Part shown: one piece after another, positions 689 through 32,664 of the stretch | Layout: every line of letters begins with the position of its first letter | Numbering within the stretch: the first letter of the stretch is position 1 | NCBI GenBank assembly: GCA_037379885.1 | Contig: JARRJC010000037.1 | Coordinates: forward strand, 1-34,837 | DNA: 34,837 nt | Reading direction: 5' to 3' | Source: Limibacillus sp. | Lineage (GTDB): Bacteria > Pseudomonadota > Alphaproteobacteria > Kiloniellales > CECT-8803 | Translations under genes and position numbers: made by a program | Notes under the pieces: model-generated | The model's database searches: none | What the model was told of the DNA's origin: nothing | Seen by the model: the letters and a program-made list of their open reading frames with translations, nothing else

Positions 689-3511
689 CTACTCCTCCTG
701 CCCTGCATCAGGATCAGGGGTCTCCTCCCCCGCTTCTTCACCGGCAGTGTCGTCGCCCGGCGTCTCTTCGGGGTCCTCCGCAGCCTCCGGCAGATCCTCC
801 GGCAGGTCCTCGGCGTCCTCGCTCTCGCCCATCCAGGCGACGGAGACCACGCGTTCCTTCTCGTCGATGCGGAACAGCGTCACGCCCCGGGTGGTGCGCC
901 CGGCAATGCGGATCCCCTCGACCGGCATGCGGATCAGCTTGCCTGCGTCGGTCACCAGCATCAGCTGATCGTTCGCCTCCACCGGGAAGGCGGCGACCAC
1001 CTTCGTGCGCTTCTTGCCCCGCGAGAGGTCGAGGTTGGCGATGCCCTGCCCGCCCCTCTTGGTGAGTCGGTATTCGTAGGCTGAGGTGCGCTTGCCGAAG
1101 CCATCCGCCGCAACGGAGAGAATGAACTGCTCGGCGGCTTCCAACTCCAGAATCTGCTCCTCGGAAAGATCGACCGCCGCCGTCTCCGGGGCCTCGCCCT
1201 CACCGTCTTCCAGGCCGAGGGCACGGCGCTTGGCGGAAGCATAGCGCAGGTAGGCGTCCCGCAGCTCCGTGTCGACCTCCTTATGGGTCAGGATCGACAT
1301 GGAGATGACCTCGTCCTTGTCGGCCAGAGAGATACCGCGCACACCAACCGAGTTGCGGCCCGCGAAGACACGCACGTCGGTTACGGGGAAGCGGATCGCC
1401 TTGCCCATGGCGGTCGCCAGCAGGACGTCCTGCTGATCGCTGCAAAGCTGCACGGAGACCAGCGAGCCGCCGCCGGCCTCTTCCAGCTTCATGGCGATCT
1501 TGCCGTTCGCCTTGATGTTGGTGAAGTCCGAGAGGCTGTTGCGGCGCACCGTTCCCTTGGAGGTCGCGAACATCACGAACATGTCCTGCCAAAGCGCCTC
1601 GTCCTCGGGCAGCGGCAAACAGGTGGTGACGTACTCGCCCTGCTCCAGCGGCAAGAGGTTCACCAGCGCCTTGCCACGGGCCTGCGGCGTGCCCTGGGGC
1701 AGGCGCCAGACCTTCATGGTGTAGGCCATGCCGCGTGAGGTGAAGAAGAGCACCGGCGTGTGGGTCGAACAGACGAAGACCTGCGTCACGAAATCGTCGT
1801 CTCGCGTCGCCATGCCCGAGCGGCCCTTGCCGCCCCGGCGCTGCGCGCGATAGGTCGAGAGAGGCACGCGCTTGATATAGCCGCCGTGGGTGATGGTCAT
1901 GACCATCTCCTGGCGCTGGATCAGCGATTCGTCGTCGTGCTCGAAGCCCGCCTCGTCGATCTCCGTGCGGCGCGGGTCCGCATAGCGTTCGCGCACCTCG
2001 AGCATCTCCTCGCGCAGCACCTCTTGCAGGCGCTCGCGGCTCTCCAGGATCGCCAGGAATTCCTTGATCTGGTCGATGAGGCTCTGGAGTTCCTCGGCGA
2101 TCTTGTCACGCTCCAAGCCGGTGAGCTTCTGGAGGCGCAGCTCCAGGATCGCACGGGCCTGCGCTTCGGAGAGCTTGTAGTTCCCCGTCTCGTCCAGCAC
2201 CCGCCCGGGCTCGTCGACCAGCGCGATCAGCGGAGCCACTTCCTCCGCCGGCCAGGAACGTTCCATCAACTGGGCGCGCGCGGAGTCCGGGTCGGACGCG
2301 CGGCGGATCAGCGCGATGATCTCGTCGATGTTCGCCACCGCGACCGCAAGACCCAGCTGGATATGCGCCTTTTCCCGGGCCTTGCGAAGGTCGTAGGCCG
2401 TGCGCCTGGTGATGACCTCCTCGCGGAATTCGATGAAGGCGGTGATCACGTCCTTCAGACCCATCAATTCGGGCCTGCCGCTGTTCAGGGCCAGCATGTT
2501 GACGCCAAAGGAGGTCTGAAGCTGCGTGAAGCGGTAGAGTTGGTTCAGGACCACGTCGCCCATGGCGTCGCGCTTCAGGTCCACCACCACGCGCATGCCC
2601 TGCCGGTCGCTCTCATCGCGCAGCTCGGAAACACCCTCGATGGTGCCCGCGCGCACGGCGTTGGCGATCTGCTCGATCATGCGGGCCTTGTTCACCTGAT
2701 AGGGAATCTCGGTGATGATGATCGATTCACGGTCGCCGCCGCGCACCTCGATCTCCGCGCGCCCACGCACCACGACCGATCCACGGCCGCTGTGCATGGC
2801 GTCGCGGATGCCCTGGGTGCCAAGGATGATGCCGCCGGTCGGGAAGTCCGGCCCTTTGACGTACTCCATCAACTGCTCGACCGAGATCATCGGGTCGTCC
2901 AGGTAGGCACAACAGGCGTCGATCACCTCGCCCAGGTTGTGGGGCGGGATGTTGGTCGCCATGCCAACGGCGATACCGCCGGCGCCGTTGACCAGCAGAT
3001 TGGGATAGCGAGCCGGAAGCACGCTGGGCTCGGTGGTGGATTCATCGTAGTTGGGGACGAAATCCACCGTCTCCTTGTCCATGTCCTCCAGCAAGGCTTC
3101 GCTGGCCAGGCGCTGGAGCCGCGCCTCGGTATAACGCATGGCCGCCGGCGGATCGCCGTCGATGGAGCCGAAGTTGCCCTGGCCGTCCACGAGCAGCGCG
3201 CGCATCGACCAGTGCTGCGCCATGCGCACCATGGCGTCGTAGATCGCGGAGTCGCCGTGCGGGTGATACTGGCCCATGACGTCGCCGACGATGCGCGCCG
3301 ACTTGCGGTAGGCCCGGTTCCAGTCGTAACCGCCGTCCTTCATGCCATAGAGAATCCGGCGGTGAACCGGCTTCAAACCGTCACGCACATCCGGCAGCGC
3401 CCGGGCCACGATCACGCTCATGGCGTAGTCGAGGTAGGAGCGCTTCATCTCGTCTTCGATGGTGACCGGCAGGATGTCCGAATCGGTCGGCTTCGGGGTC
3501 TCTTCGCTCAA
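689..3511 (-). CDS. gyrA: DNA gyrase subunit A
   Basis: Breakage-reunion subunit of gyrase, which introduces negative supercoils with GyrB using ATP. The 940-residue protein is longer than E. coli GyrA (875). The catalytic tyrosine is Y127 in [10 protein letters not shown]. The quinolone-region residues equivalent to E. coli S83 and D87 are S88 and D92 in [12 protein letters not shown], both the susceptible type. The GyrA box QRRGGKGR needed for DNA wrapping is present. An inserted acidic segment at roughly residues 740-795 and an acidic C-terminal tail explain the extra length; I recall such an insertion as common in alphaproteobacteria. The start is TTG at 3511, with AGGA about 9 bases upstream; the next in-frame ATG would remove the conserved N-terminus. 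coaD follows 5 bases after the stop. Confidence 0.98.
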
Positions 3512-3612
3512 CGGCTGAATTCCTGGAAAATTATTGTTATAATTCAGGTTTTTATCGCGCTTTTCTCACCTGCCGTGACGCAAAGGTCAAAACAACCCGG
3601 CGAGTCGCAAAA

Positions 3613-3641
3613 AATATAACAAATTTAAGCCTTTACCACAA
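3613..3641 (-). promoter_or_regulatory. putative gyrA promoter
   Basis: In the AT-rich gap between the acetyltransferase and gyrA, the minus strand reads TTGTGG, a 17-base spacer, then TATATT (5 of 6 bases of the -10 consensus). A start near 3606 would give a leader of about 95 bases. The gap (3512-3654) is strikingly AT-rich for this window. A second TATAAC closer to the gene lacks a matching -35. Confidence 0.4.
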
Positions 3642-8973: not shown

Positions 8974-10341
8974 ATGACCAAGACAAAGGCGGTACATGTC
9001 GTGGGCGGTGGGCTTGCGGGCAGCGAGGCCGCTTGGCAGATCGCCCAGGCGGGCGTGCCGGTTCTGCTTCATGAGATGCGCCCTGTACGCAAGACCGACG
9101 CCCACCACACTGACGGCTTGGCTGAGCTGGTCTGCTCCAACTCCTTCCGGTCCGACGACTTCGAGAGCAACGCGGTCGGCCTGCTGCATGAGGAGATGCG
9201 CCGCTGCAACTCCCTGGTGATGGCCGCCGCCGACAAGGCGCAGGTGCCGGCGGGCGGAGCCCTGGCTGTCGACCGCGACCTCTTCTCGCAGGAGGTGACG
9301 CGGCACCTGGAAGAGCACCCGCTGGTCTCCATCGAACGAGGCGAGGTCGCAGGTCTGCCGCCCGCCGACTGGGACTCCGTGATCCTGGCGACCGGCCCCC
9401 TCACCTCGCCCGCGCTTGCCGAGGCGATCCGCGAGGCGACGGGCGAAGGCTATCTCTCTTTCTTCGACGCCATCGCGCCCATCGTCCACAAGGACTCCAT
9501 CAACTTCGAGCGGGCCTGGTTCCAGTCGCGCTACGACAAGGTTGGGCCTGGCGGCACCGGCAAGGACTACATCAACTGTCCGATGGACCGTGAGCAGTAT
9601 GAGGCCTTCATCCAGGCCCTGGTCGAAAGCGAAAAGACCGAGTTCAAGGAGTGGGAGAAGGACACCCCCTACTTCGAAGGCTGCCTGCCCATAGAGGTGA
9701 TGGCCGAGCGCGGCGCGGACACCTTGCGGTTCGGTCCCATGAAGCCGGTTGGCCTGACCGATCCCCACACCGGCAAGCGCGCCCATGCCGTGGTGCAGCT
9801 GCGCCAGGACAACAAGCTGGGCACGCTCTATAACCTCGTCGGCTTCCAGACGAAAATGAAGTACGGCGAGCAGGCCCGCGTGTTCAGGATGATCCCCGGA
9901 CTGGAAAACGCGGAGTTCGCGCGCCTCGGCGGGATTCACCGCAACACCTTCATCAACTCGCCCCGTCTGTTGGATGAAAGCTGCCGTCTCAAGGTCGATC
10001 CGCGCATCCGTTTCGCCGGACAGGTGACCGGGGTCGAAGGCTATGTGGAAAGTGCGGCCATCGGCCTTCTGACAGGTCGTTTCGCCGCGGCTGAACGCCG
10101 GGGTGAAGCGCCCTCCCGCCCGCCGGAGACCACGGCGCTGGGCGCGTTGCTGGCGCATATCACGGGCGGTGCGGAGGAAGAGTCCTTCCAGCCCATGAAC
10201 GTCAACTTCGGCCTCTTTCCGCCGCTGGAGGACGCCAAGGGCGGACGGCGCGGCAAGGCGGAGCGGAAGAAAGGCTACAGCAGCCGCGCGCTCGCCGATC
10301 TGGATGGTTGGTTGAACCATCCCGCCCAAGCCGCCGAATGA
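8974..10341 (+). CDS. trmFO: methylenetetrahydrofolate-tRNA-(uracil-5-)-methyltransferase (FAD)
   Basis: Forms 5-methyluridine at position 54 of tRNA T-loops using methylene-tetrahydrofolate as carbon donor and reduced FAD. The 455-residue length fits the family. The N-terminal FAD fold has [11 protein letters not shown] at 11-21. The conserved cysteines equivalent to Bacillus subtilis C53 and C226 are C54 ([12 protein letters not shown]) and C237 ([14 protein letters not shown]). The ATG follows a GGAGAG site. The gene converges on the NDUFAF6-like gene with only 6 bases between the stops, so no separate terminator fits. The protein's TrmA alternative is not seen in this window. Confidence 0.96.
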
Positions 10342-10347
10342 TCTGAG

Positions 10348-11199
10348 CTAAAAGCGCCCCAGGAGCCGTGCGCCGAGCAGCCGCCAGGGCCGTGCCGGCG
10401 GGGCCTCCTGCACTCTTGCATCAAAGGGATCGAAGCCCGCCGCGTGAAGTCTGCGCAGGTGCAACTCGGCCAGGGTCGCGGGCCAGAAGACCGGCAGGGC
10501 GTGCCGATCTATCCGGCGGCTGTCCCGGCGCGCCAGCATGAGGTGCCGGGCAGCGCGCTCGGCGATCGGGCGTACCACCGGCGACAGCGCGGAGGGGGCG
10601 AGACGCCCGTCCAGCAGTTCCTGAGGACTGACGTCCGCCGCCCTCATGCCTTTGAGCGGCAAGAGGATGCGCCGCTGGCGGGTGAGAAAGGCCGTGGCGC
10701 GCAGGATGCCCGTCAGCGCCAGGGCCAGACCGGCATGGCGCGCGGCCTTCAAGGCCGGACCCTCGCGCACTCCGGCTGCCTCCAGACCCAGCAGCATCAC
10801 AGGGACCGAGGTCGCTTCCGCGTAGCGCTCGAGCGCGGCCAGCGATTCCGGCGGATCCGGGTCGAGGTCTCGCTCGCGCGCATCGATCAGGCCCTCGAAA
10901 TGGCTTCGAGTCAGATTCCCGGTCGATATCGCCTCCTCAAGCGGCTGGATCACGGCATTGCGGCGCGGCGCGCCGCCATAGAGACCTTCAATGCTGTCGC
11001 GCCACCACTGCAGGCGTATCTGCCCGATCATGGGTTCGCTAACCGATTCCGCCGTGCGCGCGATCTCCAGATTGAAGGCGTAGATCGCCAGGAGGGAACG
11101 GCGCAACGGCTCCGCCGCCAGCAGCAGCGAGAGGTAGCGATCGTGGTCGAAGCGCCGGACTTCCGCCGCGCAGTAGTTGTAGTCTTCCGCGAGAGCCAT
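10348..11199 (-). CDS. squalene/phytoene synthase family protein, NDUFAF6-like
   Basis: The 283-residue protein has the all-alpha prenyl-synthase family outline. The first aspartate-rich motif of true squalene/phytoene synthases is replaced by EIARTAESVSE (45-55), and the second region reads LTGILRATAFLTRQRRILLP (162-181) without its aspartates. It shares the block SEPMIGQIRLQWWRDSIE and later segments with human NDUFAF6, a mitochondrial complex I assembly factor. I therefore call it NDUFAF6-like and think it unlikely to make a carotenoid or squalene precursor. No carotenoid or hopanoid genes are nearby, while an NDUFAF3-like gene is. Its role here is inferred from mitochondrial homologues. 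Confidence 0.82.
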   Translation of the reverse strand: MALAEDYNYCAAEVRRFDHDRYLSLLLAAEPLRRSLLAIYAFNLEIARTAESVSEPMIGQIRLQWWRDSIEGLYGGAPRRNAVIQPLEEAISTGNLTRSHFEGLIDARERDLDPDPPESLAALERYAEATSVPVMLLGLEAAGVREGPALKAARHAGLALALTGILRATAFLTRQRRILLPLKGMRAADVSPQELLDGRLAPSALSPVVRPIAERAARHLMLARRDSRRIDRHALPVFWPATLAELHLRRLHAAGFDPFDARVQEAPPARPWRLLGARLLGRF

Positions 11200-11322
11200 G
11201 CCCCTAGCCTATCAGGGGGTGAGGCCCGACCAAGCCGTGAAAAGCTGAAACACTACTTTTTTCGGCCCTTGATGGTTTATATGAAACCGAGAACGCCTAT
11301 CTATCGAGAGGTAAGACAATAC

Positions 11323-11347
11323 GCAGGCCCCCGGTTACCGGGCCTGC
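11323..11347 (+). promoter_or_regulatory. GC-rich hairpin in the sodB leader region
   Basis: GCAGGCCC at 11323-11330 pairs perfectly with GGGCCTGC at 11340-11347, with a nine-base loop that can form two more G-C pairs. No T-tract follows. It lies 39 bases before the sodB ATG, ahead of an AAAAAGGGGG ribosome site. An AT-rich stretch with TATATG at 11278-11283 is a possible -10, but I see no convincing -35. The hairpin may stabilise the message or be a regulator site. The rest of the 187-base gap shows nothing else I recognise. Confidence 0.45.
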
Positions 11348-11386
11348 AACGAACCTGGAACCGCAAACCTCAAAAAGGGGGAAACC

Positions 11387-11986
11387 ATGGCTTTCGAGCT
11401 CCCGAACCTGCCCTACGCCAAGGATGCGCTGGAGCCGCACATCTCCGCTCAGACCTTCGACTTCCACCACGGAAAGCACCATAAGGCCTATGTCGACAAG
11501 ACCAACGAGCTGATCGCGGGCAGCGAGCACGAGGGCAAGAGCCTCGAAGAATTGATCCAGGCGGCCGCCGACAGCGGCAACGCCGGTCTCTTCAACCAGT
11601 CGGCCCAGATCTGGAACCACACCTTCTTCTGGAACTCCATGAAGCCCGGCGGTGGCGGCGCACCGACCGGTGCGGTGGCCGACATGATCACGGAGGCCTT
11701 CGGCTCCTACGAAGAGTTCGCCAAGCAGTTCAAGGCCGCCGGCGCGGGCCGCTTCGGGTCCGGTTGGGTCTGGCTGGTCGCAGAGGGCGGCAAGGCCAAG
11801 ATCGTCGCCACGCTGAATGCGGACACGCCGCTGACCCAGGCTGGCCAGACCCCGCTTCTGACCTGCGACGTCTGGGAACATGCCTACTACCTGGACTACC
11901 AGAACCGCCGTCCGGACTTCCTGCAGTCCTACCTGGACAACCTGGTCAACTGGGACTTCGCCAACGAAAACCTGGCGAACGCCTAA
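11387..11986 (+). CDS. sodB: superoxide dismutase, iron type
   Basis: Converts superoxide to oxygen and hydrogen peroxide, probably in the cytoplasm since no signal peptide is seen. The 199-residue protein carries all four metal ligands: H27 (FDFHHGKHH), H78 (QIWNHTFFW), D161 and H165 (DVWEHAYY). Q74, just before the second histidine, is the second-shell glutamine position typical of iron enzymes (E. coli SodB Q69), so iron is preferred over manganese. A very strong ribosome site precedes the ATG and a strong intrinsic terminator follows, indicating a highly expressed single-gene unit. It is inserted in opposite orientation between two complex I assembly-factor-like genes. Confidence 0.96.
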   Translation: MAFELPNLPYAKDALEPHISAQTFDFHHGKHHKAYVDKTNELIAGSEHEGKSLEELIQAAADSGNAGLFNQSAQIWNHTFFWNSMKPGGGGAPTGAVADMITEAFGSYEEFAKQFKAAGAGRFGSGWVWLVAEGGKAKIVATLNADTPLTQAGQTPLLTCDVWEHAYYLDYQNRRPDFLQSYLDNLVNWDFANENLANA

Positions 11987-12015
11987 AACCTGTTCATTCT
12001 GGGTACTAAGAAGAG

Positions 12016-12044
12016 CGCCCGGGCCCGATGGCCCGGGCGTTTTT
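12016..12044 (+). terminator. intrinsic terminator of sodB
   Basis: A perfect 10-bp GC stem, CGCCCGGGCC (12016-12025) with GGCCCGGGCG (12030-12039), closes on the loop CGAT and is followed directly by TTTTT. Thirty bases separate it from the sodB stop. Read on the other strand it is followed by CTCTTCTT, so it may also end the convergent yajC-secD-secF transcript. Confidence 0.93.
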
Positions 12045-12051
12045 CATTGGG

Positions 12052-12432
12052 TCAAGCGCCCGGTATCAGCGCCGCCGCCACCAAGCGGCCCTCAGCGAGC
12101 AGCACGTTGTAGGTGCGGCAGGCCGGACCGGTGGCCATGGCGTCGGGAACCGGCCCCTTCTCCCGTAGAGCCTCGCGCAGCGGGCGCGGCAACAGGAAGC
12201 CGCTGCTGCCCAGGCCTATCTGAAGGATCTCGGGCGGCTCGCCAATTTCGAACAGCGGTGCGAAATGCTCCGCCTCCAGGGACCGGAGGTCTTCGGGGGG
12301 CGTCCAGGGAATGACCCGCGTCGGCAGCAGGAGGATCGCGCCCTCGTGCCACTCTCCGCTCACCTTGAAGCCGGTCTCGCGATAGCTATCGATAAGCTTG
12401 CGGTCCTCGGGGACGAGCGGTGTCAGGTCCAT
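12052..12432 (-). CDS. Mth938-like domain (DUF498) protein, NDUFAF3 homologue
   Basis: A 126-residue single-domain protein of the Mth938/DUF498 family. Recognisable parts are GEWHEGAILLLPTRVIPW (about 26-43), the central ILQIGLGSSGFLLP loop and the C-terminal ATGPACRTYNVLLAEGR block. Human NDUFAF3, a complex I assembly factor, is the best-known member; the bacterial function is not established. It is 27 bases downstream of secF on the same strand, an arrangement I recall as common in alphaproteobacteria. Cotranscription with yajC-secD-secF is likely and suggests a link with inner-membrane protein insertion or assembly. Confidence 0.85.
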   Translation of the reverse strand: MDLTPLVPEDRKLIDSYRETGFKVSGEWHEGAILLLPTRVIPWTPPEDLRSLEAEHFAPLFEIGEPPEILQIGLGSSGFLLPRPLREALREKGPVPDAMATGPACRTYNVLLAEGRLVAAALIPGA

Positions 12433-12459: not shown

Positions 12460-13389
12460 CTAGGGCCGCGCCTCCGCGGTGGTCTCCTCCAGGCTGGAGC
12501 GGCGCACGCCGGTGTAGAGCAGCAGCGGCACAGCGATGCCGATGGAGGAATAGGTGCCGATCACCACGCCCCAGACCAGGGCCAGCGAGAAGCCGCGGAT
12601 TACCTCACCGCCGAAGAGCGATAGCGCCAGCAGGGCGATCAGGGTCGTAAGACCGGTGATCATGGTGCGCGACAGCGTCTCGTTGATGGAGTTGTTCAGC
12701 ACCTCGGTGAGGGGCGCCTTCTTGAAGCGGCGCAGGTTCTCCCGCACCCGGTCGGCGATCACGACGGTGTCGTTGATCGAATAGCCCGCGACCGTCAGGA
12801 CCGCCGCCACGCTGGCGAGGTTGAACTCCAGGCCGGTCAGGGCGAAGAAGCCGATCGTGCCGATTACGTCGTGCAGCAGCGCGACCAGCGCACCCACCGC
12901 GAACTGCCACTCAAAGCGGAACCAGACGTATGCGGCGATGGCCGCCAGGGCCAGCACCGTCGCCAGAATCCCGGCTTCCTTCAGTTCCTCGCCGACCTTC
13001 GGACCGACGAACTCAACGCGGCGGTAGTCCGCCACCACATCGCCGATGGCACCCTTCACGGTTTCGATGGCCGCCAACTGCTCGGCTTCCTCGCCGGGCT
13101 GACGTTCGATGTTGATCAGCACGTCGGTGGGCTCGCCGAATTCCTGGAGCGTGACCTCGCCCAACCCAAGCCCGCCAACGCGGTCGCGCAGGTCGGAGAG
13201 GTCGGCCGGGCCTTCGGTGCGAACCTCCATGAGGATGCCGCCCCGGAAATCGACACCAAAGTTCAGTCCCTTCAGCGCAACGCCCAAAAGCGAGGCCGTC
13301 ACGACGACGATGCCGATGGCGAAGAAGATCTTACGGCGCGGAATGGCGTTTAGGTTCGGCGCGATGGGCAGCTTCTTGATCAAAGCCAT
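12460..13389 (-). CDS. secF: protein translocase subunit SecF
   Basis: Inner-membrane partner of SecD that uses the proton gradient to help late steps of Sec export. The 309-residue protein has a first membrane helix at about 21-40, the conserved FGVDFRGG element near 49-56, a short periplasmic domain and five further helices from about 140. The conserved TVAGYSINDTVVIADR block lies in the membrane domain. A GGGGAGG ribosome site precedes the ATG. It follows secD by 21 bases. Confidence 0.97.
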   Translation of the reverse strand: MALIKKLPIAPNLNAIPRRKIFFAIGIVVVTASLLGVALKGLNFGVDFRGGILMEVRTEGPADLSDLRDRVGGLGLGEVTLQEFGEPTDVLINIERQPGEEAEQLAAIETVKGAIGDVVADYRRVEFVGPKVGEELKEAGILATVLALAAIAAYVWFRFEWQFAVGALVALLHDVIGTIGFFALTGLEFNLASVAAVLTVAGYSINDTVVIADRVRENLRRFKKAPLTEVLNNSINETLSRTMITGLTTLIALLALSLFGGEVIRGFSLALVWGVVIGTYSSIGIAVPLLLYTGVRRSSLEETTAEARP

Positions 13390-13410: not shown

Positions 13411-14973
13411 TCAGATCGCCAGCTGCGCGGGACGCTTCCGGCGCAGCCAGGTAACCACGATCAGGCGGGTGAACATGATCGAGGTGAACATGGAAGTAAC
13501 GATGCCGATGGCCAGGGTGACGGCGAAGCCCTTGATCGGACCCGAACCGAAGTTGAACAGCAGCACCGAGGCGATCAGCGTGGTGAGGTTGGAGTCCAAG
13601 ATCGTGGTCAGGGCGCGTTTGTAACCCTGCTCGATGGCGGGCACCGGCCCGCGCCCTCCCCTCACTTCCTCGCGGATGCGCTCAAAAATCAGAACGTTCG
13701 CATCGACCGCCATGCCGATGGTGAGCGCGATACCCGCGATCCCTGGAAGCGTCAGCGTCGCCTGGAGCCCGGACAGCGCGGCCATGATCAAGATGATGTT
13801 CGCCAGGAGCCCGACATTGGCGATCATACCCAAGAAGCCATAGGCGCCCGCCATGAAGACGACGACGAGCAGAAGCCCCACGAGGGACGCGATCTCGCCG
13901 GCGGCGATGGAGTCGGCGCCGAGACCCGGCCCCACGGTCCGCTCCTCGAGAATGGTCAGGGGCGCAGGCAGCGCACCGGCGCGCAGCAGCAGCGCCAGAT
14001 CGTTGACCTCCTGAACCGTGAAGCGGCCTGAGATGACACCGCTGCCGCCGAGGATGGGTTCCCGGATCACCGGCGCGGATATCACCTGATTGTCGAGGAC
14101 GATGGCGAAGAGCCGGCCGACGTTCTCGCGCGTTGCGTCGGCGAAGCGCTTTCCGCCCACGGAATCGAAGGTGAAGCTGACGACGGGCTGGTTCTGTTGA
14201 AAGGTCGGCTGCGCATCGGTCAACGTGTCGCCGCTGACCATGACCCGCTTTTGGACGACATAGGGCCGCGGATCGCCGCCCGGTACGTCCGGAGGACCGT
14301 AGAGCAGCTCCGACCCGGGCGGGATGGGATCGCGGCCCGGCACCACCTCGCTGTTGACGAAGCGGAAGGTCATCTTGGCCGTGCGGCCCAGGATTTCCTT
14401 GATGCGCTCGGGATTGTCGACGCCGGGAAGCTGAACCACGATGCGGTCGTCGCCCTGACGCTGGATGGAGGGTTCGCGGGTGCCGGTCTCGTCGATACGG
14501 CGGCGAACGATCTCAATGGACTGGCTGAGAACGCTGGCCTGACGCTCAAGCCGGCTTTCCTCGGTCATGGCGAAGGTGAAGGTGCCGTCCTCGACGGTCA
14601 GGTCGTAGCCCTCAGCAATGGGCGCCAGCAGCTCGCGGGCCTGATCGGCCTTGCTGCTATCGCGCAGACCGAAGACCACCTGGCCGTTCTGGATGCCCAG
14701 ATTGGTGTAGTTGATCCGGTTCCCGCGCAGTTCCAGACGGATGGCGTCCACGAGGTTCTCGAGCTGCTCCTCAACCACGGCATCCATCTCGACTTCAAGC
14801 AGCAGGTAGGAACCGCCGCGCAAGTCCAAACCCAGGTTGATCTGCTTGTTGGGCAGCCAGTCCGGCAGACTGTCCAGGGTCTTCTGGGAAACGAAGTTCG
14901 GGGCGGTGAAGGCCACGCCCAGAAGGACGATCCCCAGGATCAAGATGCTTTGCCAACGCGGGATGTTAATCAT
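13411..14973 (-). CDS. secD: protein translocase subunit SecD
   Basis: RND-like membrane protein that works with SecF in releasing exported proteins at the periplasmic face. The 520-residue protein has an N-terminal helix (about 9-28), the LGLDLRGGSYLLLEVE element, and a large periplasmic region including RRIDETGTREPSIQRQGDDR. A C-terminal six-helix membrane block contains GIALTIGMAVDANVLIFERI. The ribosome site is weak (AGAAGAT). It lies between yajC (93 bases upstream) and secF, the standard order. Confidence 0.97.
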   Translation of the reverse strand: MINIPRWQSILILGIVLLGVAFTAPNFVSQKTLDSLPDWLPNKQINLGLDLRGGSYLLLEVEMDAVVEEQLENLVDAIRLELRGNRINYTNLGIQNGQVVFGLRDSSKADQARELLAPIAEGYDLTVEDGTFTFAMTEESRLERQASVLSQSIEIVRRRIDETGTREPSIQRQGDDRIVVQLPGVDNPERIKEILGRTAKMTFRFVNSEVVPGRDPIPPGSELLYGPPDVPGGDPRPYVVQKRVMVSGDTLTDAQPTFQQNQPVVSFTFDSVGGKRFADATRENVGRLFAIVLDNQVISAPVIREPILGGSGVISGRFTVQEVNDLALLLRAGALPAPLTILEERTVGPGLGADSIAAGEIASLVGLLLVVVFMAGAYGFLGMIANVGLLANIILIMAALSGLQATLTLPGIAGIALTIGMAVDANVLIFERIREEVRGGRGPVPAIEQGYKRALTTILDSNLTTLIASVLLFNFGSGPIKGFAVTLAIGIVTSMFTSIMFTRLIVVTWLRRKRPAQLAI

Positions 14974-15066: not shown

Positions 15067-15348
15067 TTATTTCTTGGTTTTTTCCTCACCCGGCGCGATC
15101 TCAACCTCCGCTTCGGAATCGCTGATGATCTTGGTCACCTCGCCGATGATGCCGCCGGAGGTCACAACGCGGTCGCCCCGCTTCACGGCCTCAACCATGT
15201 TGCGGTGCTCTTTCATCTTCTTCTGCTGCGGACGGATCAGGAAGAAGTAGAAAACGACGAAGATCAGGATAAGCGGCAGCAGGGATATGATATCGAATCC
15301 GCCGCCAGCGGGGGCCGCGCTCTGGGCGTAAGCCGTGGAAATCAGCAT
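15067..15348 (-). CDS. yajC: preprotein translocase auxiliary subunit YajC
   Basis: Small single-helix protein that associates with SecD and SecF. The 93 residues include one membrane segment at about 24-40, directly followed by the family signature FFLIRPQQKKMKEH, and then a soluble domain containing GDRVVTSGGIIGEVTKI. The ATG has a good AGGAG site. It is the first gene of the yajC-secD-secF-Mth938 unit. Confidence 0.97.
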   Translation of the reverse strand: MLISTAYAQSAAPAGGGFDIISLLPLILIFVVFYFFLIRPQQKKMKEHRNMVEAVKRGDRVVTSGGIIGEVTKIISDSEAEVEIAPGEEKTKK

Positions 15349-30499: not shown

Positions 30500-31273
30500 A
30501 TGGTCAAGATCGCCACCTGGAACGTGAACTCCATCAATGCCCGGCTGCCGAACGCCGAAGCCTGGCTGAAGGCCGCCGAGCCCGACGTGGTGCTGCTCCA
30601 GGAGATCAAGTGCGAGAGCGACAAGTTCCCCGCCCTCGCCTTCGAGGCCCTGGGCTACAAGGCCCATGCCCATGGCCAGAAGAGCTACAACGGCGTCGCC
30701 ATTCTCTCCAAGGAAGCGATCGAGGATGTGCAGGAAGGCCTGCCGGGTGGCTCGGATGACAGCCAGGCCCGCTATCTTGAAGCGACCACCTTCGGTCTGC
30801 GCGTCGCCAGCATCTATCTGCCTAACGGCAATCCCGCGCCCGGCGAGAAGTACGACTACAAGCTCGCCTGGATGAAGCGCCTGAAGGCGCAGGCCGAAAG
30901 CCTATTGAAGAGCGAGCAGCTTGTGGTGCTGGGGGGCGACTACAACTGCATCCCGCAGCCCGAGGACTGCCACGACCCCAAGGCCTGGGCCGACGACGCC
31001 CTCTTCCTGCCACAGACGCGCCAAGCCTTCCGGGAGATCCTGAACCTCGGTTATGCGGAAGCTTTCCGCGAACTGCACCCCAGCAAGATCGACTATAGTT
31101 TCTGGGACTACCAGCGGGGCGCCTGGCAACAGGACAAGGGCATCCGCATCGATCACCTGCTGCTCAGCCCCCAGGCGACGGACCGGCTCGTCGCCTGCGA
31201 GATCGACCGGGGACCGCGCGGTGAGGAGAAGGCCTCCGACCACACGCCCGTTTGGTGCGAACTGGAGCTATAG
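30500..31273 (+). CDS. xthA: exodeoxyribonuclease III (AP endonuclease)
   Basis: Cuts DNA at abasic sites and degrades 3' ends in base excision repair. The 257-residue protein has ATWNVNSINARL (N8, N10), metal ligand E35 (LLQEIK), D147 and N149 (GGDYNCIP), and D247-H248 (SDHTPVW), all expected for the exonuclease III fold. The substrate loop YSFWDYQRGAWQQDKG is intact. The ribosome site is TAAGG. The next gene starts 5 bases after its stop. Confidence 0.97.
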   Translation: MVKIATWNVNSINARLPNAEAWLKAAEPDVVLLQEIKCESDKFPALAFEALGYKAHAHGQKSYNGVAILSKEAIEDVQEGLPGGSDDSQARYLEATTFGLRVASIYLPNGNPAPGEKYDYKLAWMKRLKAQAESLLKSEQLVVLGGDYNCIPQPEDCHDPKAWADDALFLPQTRQAFREILNLGYAEAFRELHPSKIDYSFWDYQRGAWQQDKGIRIDHLLLSPQATDRLVACEIDRGPRGEEKASDHTPVWCELEL

Positions 31274-31278
31274 ACGCC

Positions 31279-32664
31279 ATGCCAAGCGAACCCCAGGACA
31301 AGAGCGCGCTGTCCGGCGAGTTGGACCGTTTCCTGTCGAGCCACCCGCAAGCACGCAGCTTCACCATGATCTACACCGACCTCTGCGGTGTGCAGCGGGG
31401 CAAGATTCTGCGCCGGGAAGAGTTGGCGGCCACCTATACCCATGGCCGGCCCTTCCCTGAATCCATCACCGTCCTGGACGTGACCGGCGAAGACGTGCCG
31501 GAAACCGGGCTCTGCTTCGACCACGGCGATCCGGACAAGCCCGCGCGGCCCATTCCGGGAAGCCTGCTCCTCTCCCCCTGGGCCGGGCCCGAGGCAGCAC
31601 AGTTCCAGGTGACGGTGGAAGAACCCGATGGCCGCCCCTTCTTCACCGATCCCCGCGCCATTCTGGAGCGTGTGGTCGACCGCTTCGCGGCCCTGAAGCT
31701 CAGACCCGTGGTCGCCGTGGAGATGGAGTTCTACCTGCTGGACCTCTCGGCGGCTGCCGAACACCGGGCGCAACCGCCGCGACCGCTGAACGGCCAGGCC
31801 GCTCCCAGCAAGCTGCAGGCCAACCTTCTGAGCGACCTGGAAGACTTCCAGCCCTTTTTCGCGGAGCTCTATCAGGCCTGCGAGGTCCAAGGTCTGCCCG
31901 CGCGGACCCTCTTGAGCGAATACGCGCCAGGCCAGATGGAACTCGTTCTCCAGCACCGCAGCGACGCCCTGCTCGCCTGTGATGAGGCGATACGCTTGAA
32001 ACGGGCCATCAAGGGCGTCGCCGCCAAGCATGGCCTCTGCGCCTGCTTCATGGCCAAGCCCTATGCGCAATACAGCGGCTCTGGCATGCATCTCCACGCC
32101 TCGCTCGAAACCGAAGCGGGCGAGAACCACTTCTCGAGCGAGGACCGGCTCGGCAACGAGGCGCTGCGCCATGCCATCGGCGGCCTGAAGGCCACCATGG
32201 GGGACGCCATGGCGATCTGGGCGCCGGGCGGCAACTCCTACCGCCGCTTCCGCCGCTCCTCCTACGCACCGCTCGCCGCCTGCTGGGGCGCTGACAACCG
32301 CACCGTCAGCCTTCGCATTCCGGGCGGCCCCGCCGCGTCGCGCCACCTGGAGCACCGCGTCGCGGGCGCAGACGCCAACCCCTACCTGGTGGCCGCCGCG
32401 GTTCTGGCGGGCATGCACAAGGGGCTCGTGGAGAAGATCGACCCCGGCGCGCCGGTCGAAGGCAATGGCTATGAGCAGGAGCACCCCGCCCTGCCCGGCA
32501 ACTGGTTCGCCGCGCTCAGCGCCTTGAGGGAGTCGCGCTTCCTGCGCGACTACTTCGGAGCGGACTCGCTGGAGGTCTATGCCGCGCTCAAGGAAGGCGA
32601 GGCAGACCGTTTCTTCGCCGAGCCCACGGCCCTTGACTTCCAGTACTACCTGAGGACGGTTTGA
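31279..32664 (+). CDS. glutamine synthetase family protein (gamma-glutamyl-amine ligase type)
   Basis: ATP-dependent ligase that probably joins glutamate to an amine. The 461-residue protein has the GS catalytic set: E148 and E150 (VEMEFYLL), E214 and E221 (SEYAPGQMEL), H271 and H273 (GSGMHLHASL), plus NSYRRF and NRTVSLRIP. The N-terminal YTDLCGVQRGKIL and overall length match PuuA/GlnT-like enzymes rather than housekeeping GlnA. The substrate (polyamine, methylamine or other) cannot be fixed from sequence. The frame is open to 31252, but ATG 31279, with GGAG in the xthA end, is preferred. Its stop overlaps the start of the GFA gene. Confidence 0.88.
   Translation: MPSEPQDKSALSGELDRFLSSHPQARSFTMIYTDLCGVQRGKILRREELAATYTHGRPFPESITVLDVTGEDVPETGLCFDHGDPDKPARPIPGSLLLSPWAGPEAAQFQVTVEEPDGRPFFTDPRAILERVVDRFAALKLRPVVAVEMEFYLLDLSAAAEHRAQPPRPLNGQAAPSKLQANLLSDLEDFQPFFAELYQACEVQGLPARTLLSEYAPGQMELVLQHRSDALLACDEAIRLKRAIKGVAAKHGLCACFMAKPYAQYSGSGMHLHASLETEAGENHFSSEDRLGNEALRHAIGGLKATMGDAMAIWAPGGNSYRRFRRSSYAPLAACWGADNRTVSLRIPGGPAASRHLEHRVAGADANPYLVAAAVLAGMHKGLVEKIDPGAPVEGNGYEQEHPALPGNWFAALSALRESRFLRDYFGADSLEVYAALKEGEADRFFAEPTALDFQYYLRTV

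Follow-up and report, generated by a model that had tools for sequence, protein, structure and literature searches.

An NDUFAF6-like gene and a DUF498 gene beside secDF in an old alphaproteobacterial gene neighbourhood

Do two neighbouring bacterial genes that resemble the human complex I assembly factors NDUFAF6 and NDUFAF3 serve the same enzyme, or do they just lie together? The question is raised by a contig of Limibacillus sp. (JARRJC010000037.1), analysed over a stretch of 34,837 nucleotides, here called the window. An earlier note on this DNA had proposed that the two genes, separated only by a superoxide dismutase gene and located beside secD-secF, form an ancestral assembly or membrane-insertion module that is interrupted here by an inverted sodB. 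We use the name AF6 for the NDUFAF6-like gene of the window (10348–11199, minus strand). The features of the region are as follows.

8974–10341, plus strand: trmFO, the convergent neighbour of AF6 (profile match)
10348–11199, minus strand: AF6, squalene/phytoene-synthase-fold gene with both catalytic aspartate motifs lost (PF00494 match, structure model)
11200–11386: divergent AF6-sodB intergenic region, 187 bp (sequence scan)
11387–11986, plus strand: sodB, Fe/Mn superoxide dismutase (profile match)
12010–12045: hairpin, terminator-like on both strands, between the convergent sodB and DUF498 genes
12052–12432, minus strand: DUF498/Mth938 gene (PF04430 match)
12460–13389, minus strand: secF (profile match)
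13411–14973, minus strand: secD (profile match)
15067–15348, minus strand: yajC (profile match)

The arrangement is as the note had described it. The 852 bp between AF6 and DUF498 are composed of the 187-bp gap, the 600-bp sodB and 65 bp containing the hairpin, and DUF498 is followed by secF, secD and yajC, all on the minus strand. Elsewhere in the window, two long open reading frames (1760–3619, plus strand, and 31153–32484, minus strand) have no Pfam match at E 0.001; they are perhaps antisense or spurious frames of GC-rich DNA.

Family, motifs and predicted fold of the two proteins

In a profile search of the window proteins, the AF6 protein matches PF00494 (SQS_PSY) with E 9.8e-59. Its scores against the equivalog models are 128.8 bits for HpnD (cut-off 278.6) and 59.6 bits for HpnC (cut-off 250.45), and the cut-off of CrtB is also far from reached. 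AF6 reads ARTAE and ATAFL where its aligned paralogues have the two aspartate motifs, whereas D...D is present at both positions in all three other SQS_PSY proteins of the same genome. One of these paralogues, as cut here, exceeds the HpnD cut-off; the other two are nearest to CrtB and to HpnC, respectively, and remain below the cut-off. None of the 30 aligned AF6 sequences (the window and its 29 nearest relatives in the class sample) retains either motif. The first is replaced by A...E in 27 of the 30, including the window, and the second by A...H in 22 and by SxxxH in one, the window itself having A...L. In the family f29, discussed below, the second motif varies and is mostly not A...H, with AxxxH in one and SxxxH in three of 47 sequences. 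The invariant residues of the 30-sequence alignment include N43, E45, R62, L63, W66, R108, D111 and R167. This pattern suggests that a function different from the lost catalysis is conserved.

The AlphaFold2 model of AF6, calculated from the same alignment, has a mean pLDDT of 94.7. Its best matches in the PDB are CrtM-like proteins, dehydrosqualene synthases and squalene synthases, which cover the whole length with a Z of about 30 and an rmsd of 2.3–2.6 over 266–267 residues. The carbazole prenyl transferases 7vws and 7vwt, of the same fold, are also among the matches. Judged by the predicted fold and the lost motifs, AF6 most likely derives from prenyl-synthase-fold proteins, having kept the fold and lost the catalysis.

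The DUF498 protein of the window matches PF04430 with E 1.1e-27 and 96.6 bits, against a curated cut-off of 33, and 2fvt and 2fi9 are related solved structures. NDUFAF3 is a member of this family (DUF498/Mth938); no PDB profile match of the window protein bears that name. Human C11orf67 (2ab1) is another match of the profile, with E 3.8e-5, and a control search with DUF498 finds Thermus and Methanosarcina besides Caulobacter. Eukaryotic NDUFAF6 is not among the entries listed by the PDB profile search with AF6. The two homologies claimed in the note, and its description of a squalene/phytoene-synthase-family protein devoid of both aspartate motifs, are thus upheld as far as fold, lost motifs and family model go.

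Gene order in relatives and the place of sodB

Gene order was compared in 80 named loci, the best 80 of at least 590 pattern matches, from Azospirillum, Kiloniella and other, often uncultured, relatives; the sample therefore leans to near relatives. DUF498 is present in 55 of them, and several of the remaining 25 are short or end near AF6. The gene before DUF498 is secF in 45 of the 55 loci, secD in three that lack secF (L040, L058 and L060) and yajC in six that have neither secD nor secF between (L059, L065, L067, L078, L087 and L092); one locus has nothing near. The next recognised gene after AF6 is trmFO in 60 of the 80 loci, with none recognised in the other 20. Many loci also share the order and strand of tatC, serS, surE, pcm, LysM/M23, DUF815 and trmFO. 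Since unrelated genes such as serS, surE, pcm and trmFO share the neighbourhood, order alone does not establish a common task. The named loci also contain 19 minus-strand SQS_PSY matches opposed to a nearby AF6 (for example L035:8222-8848), mostly in Azospirillum, and all 19 carry a DDxxD motif.

Distances within the pair were taken from a class sample of 385 genomes, among the best 150 matches of each gene and thus not from all positives; the DUF498 position of the Limibacillus genome itself was taken from the window. DUF498 and AF6 are less than 10 kb apart in 98 of the 121 genomes for which both coordinates were listed. The remaining genomes have the genes on different contigs (20) or far apart on one contig (3). 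In all 98 close pairs the genes are on the same strand with DUF498 upstream of AF6, and so uniform an arrangement indicates that the linkage is not due to chance. The spacing is 23–158 bp in nine of the 101 genomes with both genes on one contig. In a phylum sample of 200 genomes, no AF6 match above 152.3 bits is listed outside the class, and paralogues are possibly among those matches. The order yajC-secD-secF-DUF498-(gap)-AF6 is an old, widely shared alphaproteobacterial gene order.

The gap between DUF498 and AF6 contains sodB in 30 of the 55 loci with DUF498. It is opposed to AF6 in 28 of these, on the same strand in one, and present in one copy each way in another. We therefore rejected sodB as an interruption peculiar to the window, and the note's module interrupted "here" by an inverted sodB does not hold. 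Among the 25 sodB-free gaps, four are shorter than 80 bp, and eight of ten inspected contain a hydrophobic open reading frame. The three such frames that were scanned are Urate_ox_N genes (PF06181; L037:9233-9847, L043:9283-9891 and L104:9247-9858), which may be a further partner or another bystander. A frame in locus L066 looks radical-SAM-like by eye.

In the window, DUF498 and AF6 are not an operon in the sense of co-directional, adjacent genes with no opposed gene between them. A scan of the 187-bp AF6-sodB region, where promoters are presumably located, gave no sigma-70 consensus. Two terminator-like matches were observed in the region, against 1.8 expected from shuffled sequences. The hairpin at 12010–12045 has T-rich tails on both strands and is possibly a terminator common to sodB and DUF498. 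The opposed sodB and the possible terminator hairpin make a joint DUF498-AF6 transcript unlikely in the window.

Presence of AF6 and type of complex I

Co-occurrence with complex I was counted in the 315 good genomes of the class sample (at least 90% complete, at most 5% contaminated). The AF6 counts, made at E <= 1e-40, are a minimum, since partial matches of 114–138 bits occur in family f25; paralogues reach 1e-36, and AF6 matches near 1e-42 may be paralogues. Some of the NuoD matches, defined by E <= 0.001, may be weak, hydrogenase-like or cut-off hits. With these definitions, 287 good genomes have a NuoD match, 159 have AF6 and 182 have DUF498. NuoD is matched in 158 of the 159 AF6-positive and 181 of the 182 DUF498-positive genomes, and also in 129 of the 156 AF6-negative ones, some of which have a divergent AF6. 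Complex I in many genomes without AF6 or without DUF498 means that neither gene is generally required. Only one (G383) of the 28 good genomes without a NuoD match has AF6 and DUF498. Neither NuoD nor NuoH was found in three AF6-positive genomes (G383, 96% complete; G011 and G372, both 77%). NuoH is present in all AF6-positive genomes more than 90% complete that have a weak NuoD (G076, G224, G230, G351 and G368).

The class-wide association of AF6 with nuo has a Fisher p of 2.8e-8. We rejected it as strong proof, since none of the 27 good genomes that lack both NuoD and AF6 exceeds 2.0 Mb, and among genomes up to this size, in lists read by hand, the difference is not significant (AF6 in eight of 84 with NuoD and none of 27 without, p 0.2). 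The earlier note had asked for a survey of gene distance, secDF and nuo, and would have abandoned its idea had nuo genes failed to co-occur. The survey gives a distance below 10 kb for 98 of 121 pairs, secF before DUF498 in 45 of 55 loci and NuoD in 158 of 159 good AF6-positive genomes, with the reservation about small genomes just made. The link of AF6 to complex I is consistent with these data, which do not prove it, and is a likely reading in bacteria.

A new lead comes from family f29 (that of genome G256), which is perhaps, as a guess, Acetobacteraceae. We searched 60 of its genomes for NuoD, DUF498 and AF6. AF6 was called by sequence on chosen candidate stretches, by the absence of DDxxD, a match starting near the N terminus and, mostly, RLQWW. 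The 14 hits judged not to be AF6 (the best hits of the 13 AF6-less genomes and one second hit) all have D...D at both motifs. NuoD was typed in the 51 genomes with a match over the cut-off, using 53 stretches with upstream DNA: it is unfused in 43 genomes, and eight have only a fused NuoCD. Nine fused proteins submitted to a domain scan all hold the 30-kDa (NuoC) and 49-kDa (NuoD) domains; one scanned unfused control has the 49-kDa domain alone, and the other unfused proteins were recognised by the lack of an in-frame NuoC end. In E. coli, the annotation gives NuoCD as a single gene.

AF6 is present in 41 of the 43 genomes with unfused NuoD, one of the eight with only fused NuoCD (G582) and none of the three counted as lacking NuoD (G256, with no NuoD or NuoH hit; G591, 58 bits; G612, 45 bits). 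The assemblies of the two unfused-NuoD genomes without AF6, G586 and G598, consist of 380 and 1240 contigs. Six genomes whose NuoD hits are only partial or weak (G561, G571, G576, G578, G585 and G593) were not assigned a type; five of them have AF6. One genome, G600, combines an unfused with a fused-type NuoD (C6:46050-47198 and C11:36662-37816) and keeps AF6. DUF498 was found in one of the 60 genomes, G597. The best AF6 match of the family is in that genome too, 2.4 kb downstream of DUF498 on the same strand; 50 of the 51 genomes whose NuoD exceeds the cut-off lack DUF498. With DUF498 absent from 59 and AF6 present in 47 of the 60 genomes, the two genes can evidently part.

In an rpoB tree of 13 chosen f29 genomes (G581 and G582 left out), the nine AF6-less genomes are on one side of a branch with support 98/99. 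The absence of AF6 thus needs one change, and a single loss is consistent with a connection to complex I, without being statistical proof. For the same reason we discarded a Fisher p of 2.9e-8 for f29 as support, since it treats related genomes as independent where one loss is enough. A 21-row HpnD tree that needs more changes was set aside for its poor resolution; three of its 18 inner branches are starred and one row is very long. AF6 loss in f29 coincides with the replacement or loss of ordinary complex I. We tentatively suggest that AF6 belongs to the complex I with unfused NuoC and NuoD, which is mitochondrial-like, and is dropped where the fused-NuoCD enzyme replaces it or where complex I is lost. 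If so, bacteria with both types of complex I would offer a direct test bed for the role of NDUFAF6.

Possible roles and comparison with known systems

The reading that we favour, and hold to be reasonably probable, is that the pair, part of an old neighbourhood, are related to NDUFAF6 and NDUFAF3, that AF6 is a complex I assembly factor or chaperone, that the two genes are probably transcribed separately, and that sodB is a bystander, sharing the gap in many relatives. AF6 might act on NuoH, the counterpart of ND1, or on the quinone-site module, and its old substrate cavity could hold a membrane helix, a quinone or an isoprenoid. By analogy with NDUFAF3, the neighbouring subunits of the peripheral arm (Q) may be the target of the DUF498 protein, so that both proteins would work at one stage, probably from separate transcripts in this genome. 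The location with secDF-yajC may be historical or serve co-regulation. The ancestral module of the earlier note stands as an old shared gene order (98 of 121 pairs linked); for a joint insertion module, or a physical association with Sec, the argument is purely positional.

It is unlikely that the neighbourhood is simply conserved, the whole stretch being kept in order and nearness saying nothing about a common task. The recurrence of tatC, serS, surE, pcm, LysM/M23, DUF815 and trmFO (the latter next to AF6 in 60 of 80 loci) would fit such conservation, as would the nine of 55 loci that lack secF or secDF before DUF498 and keep yajC or yajC-secD adjoining. However, the DUF498-AF6 linkage itself recurs class-wide, in 98 of 121 genomes and with 23–158 bp between the genes in nine, and PMC4938201 and PMC3436739 have both human relatives acting early on one assembly line.

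We consider it improbable that AF6 retains isoprenoid or quinone chemistry, as a binder, carrier or unusual transferase in quinone supply, and affects complex I indirectly. Its predicted fold is complete, and 7vws and 7vwt show the fold taking other chemistry, but all 30 aligned sequences have lost both metal-binding aspartate motifs, while the three further SQS_PSY proteins of the genome keep theirs. Genomes with only fused NuoCD still need quinone, yet AF6 is missing in seven of the eight such genomes of f29. A Sec-linked module, in which AF6 and the DUF498 protein insert NuoH or other Nuo subunits together with SecDF-YajC, is also improbable, even though DUF498 directly follows secF in 45 of 55 loci and PMC12470011 describes a role in ND1 biogenesis in man: yajC adjoins DUF498 without secD or secF in six of the 55 loci, secF is missing in three, AF6 is probably its own transcription unit in the window, and SecDF-YajC is also found in bacteria that lack AF6.

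A simple bacterial system with relatives of both factors would let the function of NDUFAF6 be tested directly, and a family in which AF6 is kept or lost as the complex I type changes is a further route to that function. We know of no bacterial experiment on AF6 or the DUF498 gene, and our literature search showed none; nor did it contain a paper that we recognised as stating a gene-cluster link between NDUFAF3 and SecDF or SecF.

NDUFAF6 (C8orf38) and AF6 are alike in belonging to the squalene/phytoene synthase family and fold and in having lost both DxxxD motifs. According to PMC8007014, NDUFAF6 and its orthologues lack these motifs, bacterial orthologues were used as an outgroup, and NDUFAF6 defects cause Leigh syndrome. 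Human and Arabidopsis NDUFAF6 have AxxxD and AxxxH/SxxxH, and Drosophila has other residues, as reported in PMC12470011. Compared by these reported motifs, the first motif is A-xxx-acid in both (A...E here, A...D in man); the second, of A...H type in man, is shared by 22 of the 30 aligned bacterial sequences and differs in the window, which has A...L. In man, NDUFAF6 and NDUFAF3 act early, at the peripheral-arm/ND1 stage, and their rates co-evolve, as described in PMC4938201 and PMC3436739.

The head-to-head prenyl synthases HpnC, HpnD and CrtB share the fold and PF00494 with AF6, which in contrast falls far under their equivalog cut-offs and lacks the aspartate motifs. The DUF498 protein of the window resembles NDUFAF3 (C3orf60), a PF04430 member, at the level of that family, which is broader than complex I factors. 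The abstract of Saada et al. (2009) reportedly links NDUFAF3 to secF/secD/yajC and to C8ORF38 (NDUFAF6); the neighbourhood has thus very probably been described already, and is largely ordinary. The cluster reported there and the window appear to have the same genes in the same neighbourhood; the window differs in the opposed sodB within the gap, and the present analysis adds the numbers on gene order and complex I type.
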